Assembly: GCA_030616165.1 (NCBI GenBank)
Contig: JAUWXV010000232.1
Span: 1 to 5,732 of the forward strand
Origin: a bacterium
Lineage (GTDB): Bacteria; SM23-31; JAUVVT01
Direction: 5' to 3'
DNA length: 5,732 bases
Of this stretch, positions 375 through 5,111 are shown in pieces (within the stretch, counting starts at the first letter, position 1; every line of letters starts with the position of its first letter). Position numbers and translations under genes: made by a program. Below the pieces are notes generated by a model. The model searched no databases. It was not told the origin of the DNA and saw only the letters and a list, made by a program, of their open reading frames with translations.

Positions 375-401
375 TAAAGTTTAACTGAAATTTGCCGACT
401 A
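375..401 (+). promoter_or_regulatory. Sigma-28 (FliA) flagellar promoter
   Basis: TAAAGTTT (375-382), an 11-nt spacer, then GCCGACTA (394-401). The known FliA/SigD consensus is TAAAGTTT-N11-GCCGATAA. The -35 element matches 8 of 8, the spacer is exact and the -10 matches 6 of 8 including the invariant GCCGA. Transcription should start a few bases past 401, giving a leader of roughly 60 nt before the flagellin ATG. This places the gene in the late class of a flagellar cascade, normally held off by the anti-sigma factor FlgM until the hook is complete. Confidence 0.92.
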
Positions 402-436: not shown

Positions 437-468
437 ATTTAAAGGATAAATAAAACAAGGAGGTTTTA
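437..468 (+). promoter_or_regulatory. Two tandem GGA-loop hairpins in the flagellin leader; the second covers the SD (possible CsrA sites)
   Basis: Hairpin 1: ATTTA (437-441), loop AAGGA, TAAAT (447-451). Hairpin 2: TAAAAC (451-456), loop AAGGAG (457-462), GTTTTA (463-468). Both expose GGA in a 5-6 nt loop, and the two GGAs begin 15 nt apart. The loop of hairpin 2 is part of the AAGGAGG ribosome site, 7 nt before the ATG at 471. GGA in a small hairpin loop, with one of two sites overlapping the SD, is the arrangement CsrA uses on the Bacillus subtilis hag (flagellin) leader, where FliW relieves the block. The hairpins and the SD are seen directly; CsrA binding is inferred. The stems are A/T-rich and weak alone, as CsrA targets can be. 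Confidence 0.6.
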
Positions 469-470
469 AA

Positions 471-1334
471 ATGGCTATTGGAGATTCCACCCGCATCAAT
501 ACCAATATTGCTGCTTTTAATGCTTTAAATGCCTTAAAAAATATAAATCGAGGCTTAGAAAAGAGTCAGCTCAAACTTGCCACAGGTCTGAGGATAAATG
601 AAGTATCCGATGACCCTGCTGGTTTTGTAATTTCCAAACGATTATATGCCAGATCAAGGGGTTTATCAACAGCGCTGGATAATGTCGGAACTGCAAAAAA
701 TGTCCTTGCTATTGCAGAAGGGGGACTTATAAACATTAGCAACATACTTGTCACCATGAAGGAGAAAATCACCCAAGCGGCGAGTGACACTTTAGGTTCA
801 GCAGAGAGAAACGCCATTAAAACAGAACTTGACCAACTCACTGCAGAAATCAATAATATTGTAGATGAAACCACTTTCAACAATATAAGTCTAATAGATG
901 GAAATTATAGAAATAAGTCAATACAGACTGGTGAAGATACAACAAATACATTAGAGATAAACATTGTGAGACAAGGAACAACTTCAAGCGGTTTCAAAGC
1001 TGCCGATTTAGAAGTCGATACTCCGAACGTTTCTTCGCTGGTATTTACAGCAGCGGGTTCAAGCATGGCATTATCAAGAATTGATAGTGCAATAGAAGTC
1101 ATCTCCGATGCACTACAAAATATTGGTGCTTATATTTCGAGGATGACGGTTAAAGAATCTACTCTTTCCATTGCTATCATCAACACTGAAGGAACAAGAA
1201 GCAGAATTATGGATGCCGATATTGCAAGAGAACAGTTAGAATCTACAAAATTGCAGATACTCCAGCAGACAGCCACCGCCCAGTTAGCGCAGGCTAATAT
1301 TACTCCCCAGAATATTCTTGCTCTATTCACATAA
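471..1334 (+). CDS. fliC: Flagellin, short form
   Basis: The 287-residue product is the filament subunit, exported by the flagellar type III system and polymerised outside the cell. The conserved N-terminal D0/D1 region spans residues 5-140, with TRINTNIAAFNALNAL and a TGLRINEVSDDPAGFVIS block matching the usual TGxRINxAxDDxAGLAIS. The C-terminal D1/D0 region (about 200-287) has TRSRIMDADIARE and ends PQNILALF, as flagellins do. Only about 60 residues (141-200) separate them, so the variable D2/D3 domains are essentially absent. No cysteine is present. The ATG sits 7 nt behind a perfect AAGGAGG. It is transcribed alone: sigma-28 promoter upstream, strong terminator downstream, and no flaG, fliD or fliS next to it. 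Departures from the common pattern include FVISKRL where LAISEKM is usual. Flagellin identity is near certain; whether it is the major or a minor filament protein is unknown. Confidence 0.96.
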   Translation: MAIGDSTRINTNIAAFNALNALKNINRGLEKSQLKLATGLRINEVSDDPAGFVISKRLYARSRGLSTALDNVGTAKNVLAIAEGGLINISNILVTMKEKITQAASDTLGSAERNAIKTELDQLTAEINNIVDETTFNNISLIDGNYRNKSIQTGEDTTNTLEINIVRQGTTSSGFKAADLEVDTPNVSSLVFTAAGSSMALSRIDSAIEVISDALQNIGAYISRMTVKESTLSIAIINTEGTRSRIMDADIAREQLESTKLQILQQTATAQLAQANITPQNILALFT

Positions 1335-1371: not shown

Positions 1372-1402
1372 GGAGGTTACCAATAGCATAATAACCACCT
1401 CC
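1372..1402 (+). promoter_or_regulatory. SD-like sequence in a hairpin with an anti-SD, in the flagellin 3' untranslated region
   Basis: AAAGGAGGTTA begins 35 nt after the flagellin stop and looks like a perfect ribosome site, but no start codon with an open frame follows. GGAGGT (1372-1377) can pair with ACCTCC (1397-1402). Alternatively GGTTA (1375-1379) can pair with TAACC (1392-1396). The terminator stem begins at the next base. It may be a remnant of a second gene's start, a stability element, or a further GGA site for the same RNA-binding protein as the leader. The pairing is visible; the function is open. Confidence 0.45.
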
Positions 1403-1438
1403 AGAAAAAGCAGCATCAATTTTGATGCTGCTTTTTCT
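1403..1438 (+). terminator. Intrinsic terminator of the flagellin gene
   Basis: There is a perfect 16-bp inverted repeat: AGAAAAAGCAGCATCA (1403-1418), loop ATTT (1419-1422), and the exact complement at 1423-1438. The GC-rich core GCAGCATCA is followed on the plus strand by a TTTTT run inside the descending arm. The A-run in the ascending arm would give a U-tract on the other strand too, so it could work in both directions. It isolates the flagellin transcript from the genes downstream. Confidence 0.9.
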
Positions 1439-2995: not shown

Positions 2996-3868
2996 ATGAA
3001 AATAAAGAAAGAGATATTTGTAATTTTTTTGATTCTTTTGTTTATCGGGTGTAATAATAGAAATGTAAATTTTTACATCCAGCAGATTTTCGAACCTGAT
3101 CATGGTCCGATATATATACCTGCAGGCGAATTCATTATGGGTTTAGATTCTGGTAAGCCAAATGAATCTCCAGCCCATATTGTCTATCTTGATTCGTATT
3201 ATATTGATGAGAATCTTGTGACAAATGAAGAATATCTCGAATTCTGGGAAGATCCAAAAGGAGGGAATAAACATTATTATACTCCACGGAGTTTTACGAA
3301 CGATTCCTGGCCCAAGAGGGCATCAAGAAAGCCGAGACACCCTGTTGTTGGTGTATCCTGGTCAATGGCAAGTAAGTACGCCGAATGGGCGGGAAAAAGA
3401 CTACCCACAGAAGCCGAATGGGAAAAAGCAGCAAAAGGTATGACACAAAGAAAATATCCTTGGGGAGATACACCACCAGATTACAATGACAAATTCAGAG
3501 CAAATTTCAACATTATTGACCTTCAATCTAAATTTCCAAAAGATGGATTCTCCAGTACATCTCCGGTTGGCTATTACAATGGGATAAATCTAAAAACCGC
3601 CAGAGGAAGAAGCCCTTATGAATTAAATGATATGGCTGGAAATGTCTGGGAATGGGTTAGAGACTGGTATTCACCAGACTATTATAAATATTCTCCATAT
3701 GATAATCCAAAGGGACCAGGATATGATTATTCTGATGGGACAAAAGTAATCAGAGGAGGCTCCTGGAAAAATTCTTCTGAAGAACTGGTAACTACCTTTA
3801 GAATGCAAAAACCGTTTGTGTATGGAGAAAATGACATTGGGTTTAGATGTGCAAAATCCGCTCCATAA
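2996..3868 (+). CDS. SUMF1-fold (formylglycine-generating-enzyme-like) lipoprotein
   Basis: The 290-residue product starts with a lipoprotein signal: basic MKIKKE, a hydrophobic stretch to residue 16 and lipobox FIGC with Cys19 as the lipidated residue. Asn follows it, so no Asp+2 retention signal. From residue 38 on it is a full SUMF1/FGE fold: IYIPAGEFIMG (39-49), PAHIVYLDSYYID (59-71), HPVVGVSWSMASKYAEWAGKRLPTEAEWEKAA (115-146), YPWGD (154-158), MAGNVWEWVRDW (213-224), VIRGGSW (251-257) and the terminal GFRCA (282-286). FGE itself oxidises a sulfatase cysteine using a Cys pair shortly after GGS. Here that stretch (GGSWKNSSEELVTTFRM) has no cysteine, so formylglycine synthesis is unlikely. 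The domain is more probably a binding or structural module at the cell envelope. No sulfatase or kinase is adjacent. The ATG is the only start that keeps the signal peptide. Confidence 0.9.
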   Translation: MKIKKEIFVIFLILLFIGCNNRNVNFYIQQIFEPDHGPIYIPAGEFIMGLDSGKPNESPAHIVYLDSYYIDENLVTNEEYLEFWEDPKGGNKHYYTPRSFTNDSWPKRASRKPRHPVVGVSWSMASKYAEWAGKRLPTEAEWEKAAKGMTQRKYPWGDTPPDYNDKFRANFNIIDLQSKFPKDGFSSTSPVGYYNGINLKTARGRSPYELNDMAGNVWEWVRDWYSPDYYKYSPYDNPKGPGYDYSDGTKVIRGGSWKNSSEELVTTFRMQKPFVYGENDIGFRCAKSAP

Positions 3869-3908: not shown

Positions 3909-5111
3909 ATGTTTTATATCTTCATCATAACATTTCTTGTTTTAGTTCAAATATATCTCATTTTTAAATCATACAGTTTTATTTCAGATTTTTTTAATAG
4001 CAAAAAAATCAAAAAATTATCATATTTGATAATTACAATAATTATAGGTTATCTTAATTTTTCATTTATAGTTTCAATAACAATTTCCCATTCAAATAAT
4101 CTAAAGTCATCGGACCTATTTTATTACGGATTCCTTTATCCCGGGGGAGTATGGCAGGGTATGTCAATCTTGCTATTTTTCATATTCCTTTTAAAAGATA
4201 AATTGGTTTTATTTTACAAATATTTTATGTATATTATGAAAAAATTATATAGATTAAAATATAAAGAAACCAAAGTCAATGTATCAGAATCGAGAAGAAA
4301 ATTCTTGAAAGGGCTTTCAGCAAGCCTCGCTCTGCCACCGATAATTGGTTCTGTATATGGAGCAACAATGCAAAGTTCTAATTTTGTTATAAATAAAAAA
4401 AGGATAAAATTCTGTTTTCTTCCGGATAAATTAAAAGGATTGAAAATAGCCCAATTAAGCGATATACACGCTGGAATTTATCTTCGGAAGAAAAAAATCC
4501 TCGAAGCAGTAGAAATAACAAATAGTCTGAACCCAGACATTATAGCATTAACCGGTGATTATGTTTCTAATTCTGGAAGATATATATACCCGTGTATAGA
4601 AGCGCTCTCTTTATTAAGACCTAAATTGGGAATTTATTCCTGTATTGGTAATCATGATAATTGGGTTAACCGCGATTTAATAATAGATGGCTTAAAAAGT
4701 GCAGAAATAAAGATTCTAATCAATGAAAACCAAAAAATAGAATATAATGGATATGATTTTTATATTGCTGGAATTGAAGACCCCTGGTATGCAAAGCCTG
4801 ATTTAAAAAAAACCCTTAAATATATACCAGAAGATTCATTTAAAATCCTTTTGAGCCATCAGCCTATTCTTTTCGATGATGCAGAAAAAGAAAAAGTAAA
4901 TTTAACACTTTCCGGACATACACACGGAGGACAAATTGCCATTCCCGTTTTGGGGATGCCTTTAAATATTGTGATGTTTGTTACTCCATACGTTAGCGGA
5001 TTATTCCTGAAAAATGAATCTTATTTATATGTTAACAGCGGAATTGGTTTTACAGGTCCTCCATTTCGTATGAATGTTCCACCAGAAATAACCTTGATTA
5101 CACTGGTATAG
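3909..5111 (+). CDS. Membrane-anchored calcineurin-like metallophosphoesterase (YkuE/YaeI type) with internal Tat signal
   Basis: The 400-residue product has three hydrophobic segments (about 1-20, 37-60, 80-96), a basic loop, a twin-arginine motif SRRKFLK (128-134) with a hydrophobic stretch to about 150, then the catalytic domain (about 175-400). Metal ligands are visible in order: SDIH (Asp185, His187), GDY (Asp217), GNHD (Asn248, His249), SHQP (His317) and GHTHGG (His337, His339). The lysine-rich loop at 32-36 and the basic 111-134 region predict N-terminus out, three crossings, RR inside and the enzyme outside. B. subtilis YkuE is a known Tat substrate. Relatives hydrolyse phosphodiester or pyrophosphate bonds; chlamydial LpxG, in the same superfamily, cleaves UDP-diacylglucosamine, so a lipid-precursor role is possible. 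It starts 40 nt after the lipoprotein gene with no clear SD and is probably co-transcribed. Substrate unknown. Confidence 0.88.
   Translation: MFYIFIITFLVLVQIYLIFKSYSFISDFFNSKKIKKLSYLIITIIIGYLNFSFIVSITISHSNNLKSSDLFYYGFLYPGGVWQGMSILLFFIFLLKDKLVLFYKYFMYIMKKLYRLKYKETKVNVSESRRKFLKGLSASLALPPIIGSVYGATMQSSNFVINKKRIKFCFLPDKLKGLKIAQLSDIHAGIYLRKKKILEAVEITNSLNPDIIALTGDYVSNSGRYIYPCIEALSLLRPKLGIYSCIGNHDNWVNRDLIIDGLKSAEIKILINENQKIEYNGYDFYIAGIEDPWYAKPDLKKTLKYIPEDSFKILLSHQPILFDDAEKEKVNLTLSGHTHGGQIAIPVLGMPLNIVMFVTPYVSGLFLKNESYLYVNSGIGFTGPPFRMNVPPEITLITLV

Follow-up and report, generated by a model that had tools for sequence, protein, structure and literature searches.

The original studies of the Bacillus subtilis hag leader are reportedly those of Yakhnin in 2007 and Mukherjee in 2011. 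The CsrA–FliW mechanism is established for hag, and its leader is described as having two CsrA sites, one of them over the Shine–Dalgarno (SD) sequence (PMC7652899, PMC6529632). The mechanism is likewise established for Campylobacter jejuni flaA, for which both CsrA sites are proven (PMC4894983), and the module is conserved in deep branches of the bacteria (PMC6529632). FliX of Escherichia coli is a small RNA from the fliC 3'UTR; its pairing site is within the coding sequence of fliC, and Hfq is involved (PMC10578931). FlmE of C. jejuni is processed from the flgE mRNA and acts at ribosome binding sites; its targets are flgM and Cj1387c (PMC11187230). The joint action of FliW–CsrA and small RNAs, the latter acting on CsrA itself, has been named as an open question (PMC7652899).

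The window, by which we mean the whole 5,732-nt stretch of DNA analysed here, carries a flagellin gene with a leader that resembles that of flaA (PMC4894983): it is short and has two stem-loops with ANGGA in each loop, the second over the SD. As for flaA, the flagellin gene is of the sigma-28 type, csrA and fliW are present in the genome, and compensatory changes are seen in relatives. Unlike flaA, the gene belongs to another phylum, hairpin 1 is weaker, there are several paralogues of which only some have the design, and the 3'UTR contains an additional antisense element. The spacing of the two sites is 15 nt compared to 21 nt in flaA; this counts against a two-site model, since it is shorter than the favourable 18–21 nt (PMC4894983). 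The first-pass annotation had likened the leader to that of hag, and the two share the arrangement of two putative CsrA sites, one over the SD, as far as the description of hag goes. By these testable features, we would place the window leader with the CsrA–FliW leaders of hag and flaA.

Our main reading, to which we assign a probability of about 0.75, is that positions 437–468 form a CsrA-bound translational operator of a CsrA–FliW–flagellin homeostasis module, with a start region that is probably also an antisense target. By analogy with hag and flaA, a CsrA dimer would occupy the SD hairpin (hairpin 2, with its high-affinity core ACAAGGAGGU), and its second pocket would take the upstream GGA in hairpin 1, so that the ribosome is kept off. 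FliW, when free of unsecreted flagellin, would bind CsrA and thereby release the message, and non-exported flagellin would sequester FliW. On this reading, the switch extends, with covariation, to a deep uncultured lineage (metagenome-assembled genomes (MAGs) labelled KSB1/SM23_31) and to the Neomarinimicrobiota. A place outside the usual hosts, which the first-pass annotation had raised as a question, is only mildly new, because conservation of the module in deep bacterial branches had already been noted (PMC6529632).

The flagellin leader in the window

The features of the flagellin locus are listed in Table 1. The two adjacent hairpins previously annotated at 437–468, with one base in common, were found at exactly these coordinates. 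Since the shared base, T451, can pair only once, the hairpins can coexist with at most 5 + 5 or 4 + 6 base pairs. The second loop lies over the SD and the leader lies behind a sigma-28-type promoter, both as annotated, the promoter being recognized by its consensus. A sigma-28-type motif was also present 5' of several flagellin paralogues and of an intergenic antisense copy on contig C202.

Table 1. Coordinates of features at the flagellin locus of the window.
Feature	Position	Strand	Remarks
Putative sigma-28-type promoter, TAAAGTTT-N11-GCCGACTA	375..401	+	Consensus match only
Hairpin 1, putative distal CsrA site	437..451	+	ATTTA 437–441, AAGGA 442–446, TAAAT 447–451
Hairpin 2, putative CsrA site over SD	451..468	+	TAAAAC 451–456, AAGGAG 457–462, GTTTTA 463–468
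Flagellin gene, 287 aa	471..1334	+	Flagellin_N E 9.8e-35, Flagellin_C E 1.6e-15
Predicted antisense pairing site, codons 1–4, TGGCTATTGG	472..481	+	Codon version common to two-site paralogues
3'UTR antisense hairpin (predicted), GGAGGTTACCAATAGCATAATAACCACCTCC	1372..1402	+	Conserved in other genera
Intrinsic terminator, stem GAAAAAGCAGCATCA / TGATGCTGCTTTTTC	1403..1438	+	Region folding z -8.0

By inspection, the leader has two GGA sites, starting at 444 and 459, one of which overlaps the SD. The core of hairpin 2, ACAAGGAGGT (455–464), differs at one position from the core of RUACARGGAUGU, the high-affinity CsrA consensus, and this change keeps the SD. Hairpin 2 matches the consensus core ACARGGANGU, whereas hairpin 1 has only ANGGA. 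The stem of hairpin 1 consists of A–U pairs only and is marginally stable. When the 66-nt leader was folded alone, the predicted probability was ≈0.94 for hairpin 2 and ≈0.1 for hairpin 1; with 45 nt of coding sequence added, the values were 0.55 and 0.3. Accordingly, the GGA is predicted to be presented in the loop with a probability of about 0.55–0.95 in hairpin 2 and about 0.1–0.3 in hairpin 1. The predicted fold of the whole leader was no more stable than that of shuffled sequences (z +0.93).

The genome to which the window belongs (G000; 3.74 Mb in 343 contigs, 90% complete, the window being contig C82) provided a background of 179 other start sites from 40 sampled contigs. A distal GGA hairpin at least as good as hairpin 1 was found at 1.1% of these sites, an SD hairpin at least as good as hairpin 2 at 2.8%, and both at the quality of the window at 0.6%. 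Dinucleotide shuffles of the upstream region matched hairpin 1 in 15 of 1000 cases. Given these background and shuffle rates, hairpin 1 by itself is unusual at a nominal level only, and the case for two hairpins from the window alone is suggestive, not strong; stronger support comes from relatives. No Rfam family reached its gathering score in the window when the leader and 3'UTR were searched, and sub-threshold matches were dismissed, since their scores rest on the terminator.

The window gene is one of five flagellin paralogues in G000. The two-site leader is found on C82 and C58 and is absent from C119, C171 and C199, although C171 has a single site, ACAGGGAAGT, at its SD. With three of the five paralogues lacking the design, it is no switch for flagellins in general; the CsrA–FliW leader is confined to a subset of the paralogues within a single genome. 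Further along the window are two ordinary genes, one for a lipoprotein-like FGE-sulfatase-domain protein (2996–3868), followed by one for a metallophosphoesterase with N-terminal membrane segments (3909–5111).

Related leaders, CsrA and FliW

The nearest named relatives are the MAGs bacterium CSMAG_1171, candidate division KSB1 and bacterium SM23_31, followed by Calditrichota and Neomarinimicrobiota. We compared 30 flagellin leaders, 21 from six genomes of the class and nine from Calditrichota and Neomarinimicrobiota. A strong distal GGA hairpin was present in 16 of the 30, compared to 6 of the 179 background sites (p 2e-11), and in 9 of the 21 when only the class was considered (p 9e-7); the background comes from G000 only and is an approximation for the other genomes. 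The distal stems vary in sequence yet still pair, as in TTTCTGTC-AAGGAT-GGCAGAAA, ATCTGGT-AAGGAT-GCCAGAT, TCTAGT-AAGGAC-ACTAGA and GTGAGC-ATGGAC-GCTCAC. When 20 leaders were aligned on 22 fixed columns, each of the seven pairs of the distal hairpin had changes on both sides, with 42 both-side-changed cells compared to 18.7 in shuffles. The covariation score was 0.634, against 0.245 for shuffled alignments and a maximum of 0.248 when the alignment was slid; some pairing bias remains in these values, because the distal GGA was picked for each leader. The inner pairs of hairpin 2 hardly vary between leaders and their compensatory signal is weak, so that conservation there may reflect sequence instead of structure.

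ACAAGGAGGT itself occurs in 14 of the 30 flagellin leaders and at none of the 179 other start sites, 40 of which have AAGGAG. The whole of G000 contains only nine such sites, two of them flagellin leaders, and no comparable upstream hairpin was seen at the others. The only ACAAGGAGGT site in the 2.5-Mb genome G001 is a flagellin leader. The nearest orthologue of the window gene, G001 C311, has kept a GGA at -28 (-27 in the window) and a four-pair SD hairpin; stem 1 is lost.

There is some chance, which we put well below even, that the SD hairpin alone matters, with CsrA on a single ACAAGGAGGT and hairpin 1 a decayed or chance A–U palindrome in A-T-rich sequence. The low folding probability of hairpin 1, the 15 shuffles in 1000 that equal it and the loss of stem 1 in the nearest orthologue all fit this simpler arrangement. 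However, a GGA is kept at the corresponding position of the orthologue, the distal hairpins of most other two-site leaders are strong and covary, and CsrA requires the GGA more than a stable stem. Very improbable is the notion that the hairpins arise only incidentally, from a strong SD (AAGGAGG) in DNA rich in A and T, and that CsrA control is absent, since, even though the leader folds no better than its shuffles, AC..GT flanks occur at none of the 40 other AAGGAG start sites, the distal hairpin covaries, and csrA and fliW adjoin flagellar genes.

The two-site reading had been made to depend on a csrA homologue in the same genome. G000 has one csrA and one fliW, adjacent to each other at the end of the row flgG-flgA-flgH-flgI-flgJ-flgN-flgK-flgL-fliW-csrA. 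FlgL, FliW and CsrA were confirmed, and the other genes of the row were named from their translations and order. This recalls B. subtilis, in which fliW and csrA are also adjacent near flgK–flgL. Both genes were present in all five relatives of the class. The G000 CsrA matches the CsrA equivalog with 102.7 bits, contains the motifs MLILTRK.. and ..VHREE.., and aligns end to end over residues 2–80 with the CsrA chain of the solved CsrA–FliW complex (5DMB); the G000 FliW aligns with FliW chain A of the same structure. CsrA retains L4 and R44, which we take to be RNA-contact residues, as well as I51, N55 and a C-terminal extension. V51 and N55 are FliW contacts, and in the FliW-containing species compared, N55 was identical in all and V51 was identical or isoleucine (PMC7829508).

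According to the first-pass annotation, an SD kept in relatives that had lost both stems would speak against its reading; what was found is an upstream GGA hairpin kept with compensatory changes. The covariation that it had proposed to look for is strong for the distal hairpin and weak for hairpin 2, and stem 1 of the window is lost in the nearest orthologue. Translational homeostasis of flagellin draws support from csrA and fliW, from the leader covariation and from the ACAAGGAGGT context, with CsrA binding at the window leader presumed by analogy.

The gene tree of the flagellins does not track the presence of the two-site leader, and a single origin of the design by descent of the coding region was therefore dropped. 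In this tree, C82 groups with C119. The coding regions of C82 and C119 (G000) and of C311 and C209 (G001) group by genome; their leaders are alike across genomes. This mismatch between coding regions and leaders hints at gene conversion between paralogues.

A predicted antisense element and its copies

Two parts of the 3'UTR hairpin in the window are antisense to the flagellin start: the loop, CCAATAGC, to codons 2–4 (GCTATTGG), and the 3' arm, ACCTCC, to the SD sequence GGAGGT. Their order and spacing correspond to those of the two targets. A search of seven genomes with the pattern GGAGG-N1-6-ACCRAYAGC-N3-18-CCTCC gave four matches, and the reversed control pattern gave none. Each of the four is followed by a terminator: the window element, one in a flagellin 3'UTR (G003 C209) and two in intergenic regions (G000 C202 and G002 C348). 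About 280 nt downstream of a flagellin fragment is a fifth, relaxed copy (G005 C233), whose arms are GAGGTTG/CAACCTC. In the predicted folds of the five copies, the seed occupies a loop that is large and open, and the hairpin and the adjoining terminator are kept in every one. Antisense-like pattern matches that had no terminator were treated as chance or coding.

A model built from the five copies and the diverged 3'UTR of G001 C311 gave two matches outside its training set, in the 3'UTR of a flagellin fragment (G004 C269; E 1.9e-6; GAGGGAAT-ACCAATAGCC-AAATTCCTC) and in that of a flagellin (G003 C59; E 4.7e-4). Matches on G004 C137 and G002 C241 look like plain terminators and were rejected. 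Clear antisense copies are present in five of the six class genomes, in flagellin 3'UTRs or intergenic regions; in the flagellin 3'UTRs of Calditrichota and Neomarinimicrobiota, no antisense elements were found except for a weak candidate (L072, z -3.2). The C202 copy (L209 1466–1660, minus strand) sits between a rhomboid-like gene, identified from its translation, and a convergent gene. A sigma-28-type promoter, TAAAGAAAATCAAATATAAGCCGATACT, belongs to this copy alone and speaks for a small RNA produced along with flagellin; the copy is a candidate free-standing small RNA gene.

Like FliX, the window element lies in a flagellin 3'UTR before the terminator, is complementary to flagellin mRNA, and is associated with sigma-28 expression. 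Unlike FliX, it is antisense to the SD and codons 2–4, it lies within a hairpin of the form GGAGG/CCTCC, and further copies of it are intergenic. FlmE and FlmR of C. jejuni provide a parallel as small RNAs of the flagellar regulon in a CsrA–FliW organism (PMC11187230), the window element being a predicted one; the targets of FlmE, however, are not flagellin. We think it probable, on somewhat weaker grounds than the CsrA reading, that a conserved antisense RNA element, located in flagellin 3'UTRs (here 1372–1402) and at intergenic loci, targets the flagellin start. Such an RNA would pair with codons 2–4 and the SD of those flagellin mRNAs that have the two-site leader, and would prevent initiation either in cis or in trans. 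Whether two interlocked RNA controls meet at one start site, CsrA–FliW together with a sigma-28-driven antisense family silencing its own or another paralogue, is to us an evenly balanced question. If true, the element would represent an RNA family outside Rfam, aimed at the same start site, with the choice of paralogue made through RNA pairing. This suggests a previously undescribed, RNA-based second brake on flagellin in these uncultured bacteria, and the system would make the joint action of FliW–CsrA and small RNA testable in one organism.

The predicted duplexes between the copies and the two-site starts of their own genomes were -38.0 and -41.7 kcal/mol for G000 C202, -36.6 and -36.7 kcal/mol for G003 C209, -38.9 kcal/mol for G002 C348 and -37.3 kcal/mol for G005 C233. 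The window element gave a modest -27.3 kcal/mol with its own start and -31.2 kcal/mol with its best partner, the paralogue C58. None of the background start sites paired as strongly as these five. Most duplexes with other paralogues were weaker (-17 to -29). In a comparison based on 50-nt windows across the entire 3'UTR, including the terminator, the background reached -31, which makes the window element the least convincing of the copies by energy; the duplexes of G004 C269 and G001 C311 were not distinguishable from background in the same windows. The evidence for an antisense family is therefore its recurrence, place and form.

It is doubtful, in our view, that the 3'UTR element acts only in cis, with the tail of the mRNA folding onto its own SD, instead of as a small RNA in trans. 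A fold-back of the mRNA tail on its own SD is described for Staphylococcus aureus icaR, and the copies in flagellin 3'UTRs of G000, G003 and G004, together with own-start duplexes of -27 (window) and -38 (G003), would be in keeping with it. This is countered by the existence of intergenic copies, two in number and one of them behind a separate sigma-28-type promoter, and by partners that lie elsewhere: the window element pairs best with C58, and the 3'UTR of the flagellin fragment G004 C20 is a near-complete antisense of the leader of the paralogue C179, with a predicted duplex of -49.5 kcal/mol. (This 3'UTR, L211 140–245, has a different antisense form, in which the anti-SD lies in a CCUCCU hexaloop.) We consider it improbable that the element is instead an inverted DNA repeat through which flagellin genes undergo inversion or gene conversion. 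The element does repeat the start region in inverted orientation, and the grouping of C82 with C119, taken with the resemblance of leaders across genomes, hints at conversion; against this, the blocks that match are short, with unrelated spacers between them, each copy has a hairpin with an adjacent terminator, and a sigma-28-type promoter precedes one of the intergenic copies.

The proposed CsrA and antisense controls may be linked through the first codons. A GCY ATY GG start is found in all nine class leaders with ACAAGGAGGT and in G003 C209, compared to none of the 11 other class leaders, and it is with this codon version that the antisense element pairs best. The link between ACAAGGAGGT and the codons could be due either to selection on RNA pairing or to recombination that moved leader and first codons together. 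An antisense counterpart was sought for the paralogues beginning GCA ATA GG and was not found. At the position corresponding to window 472–482, class flagellins whose leaders lack ACAAGGAGGT nearly all have GCA ATA GG or other versions, although the two groups are not split in the gene tree. Three leaders that lack CsrA sites, G002 C136, G005 C165 and G004 C75 (L051, L054 and L058), have GGCAATAA in common, ≈30–45 nt before the start, and this sequence resembles their own start, ATGGCAATAGG.
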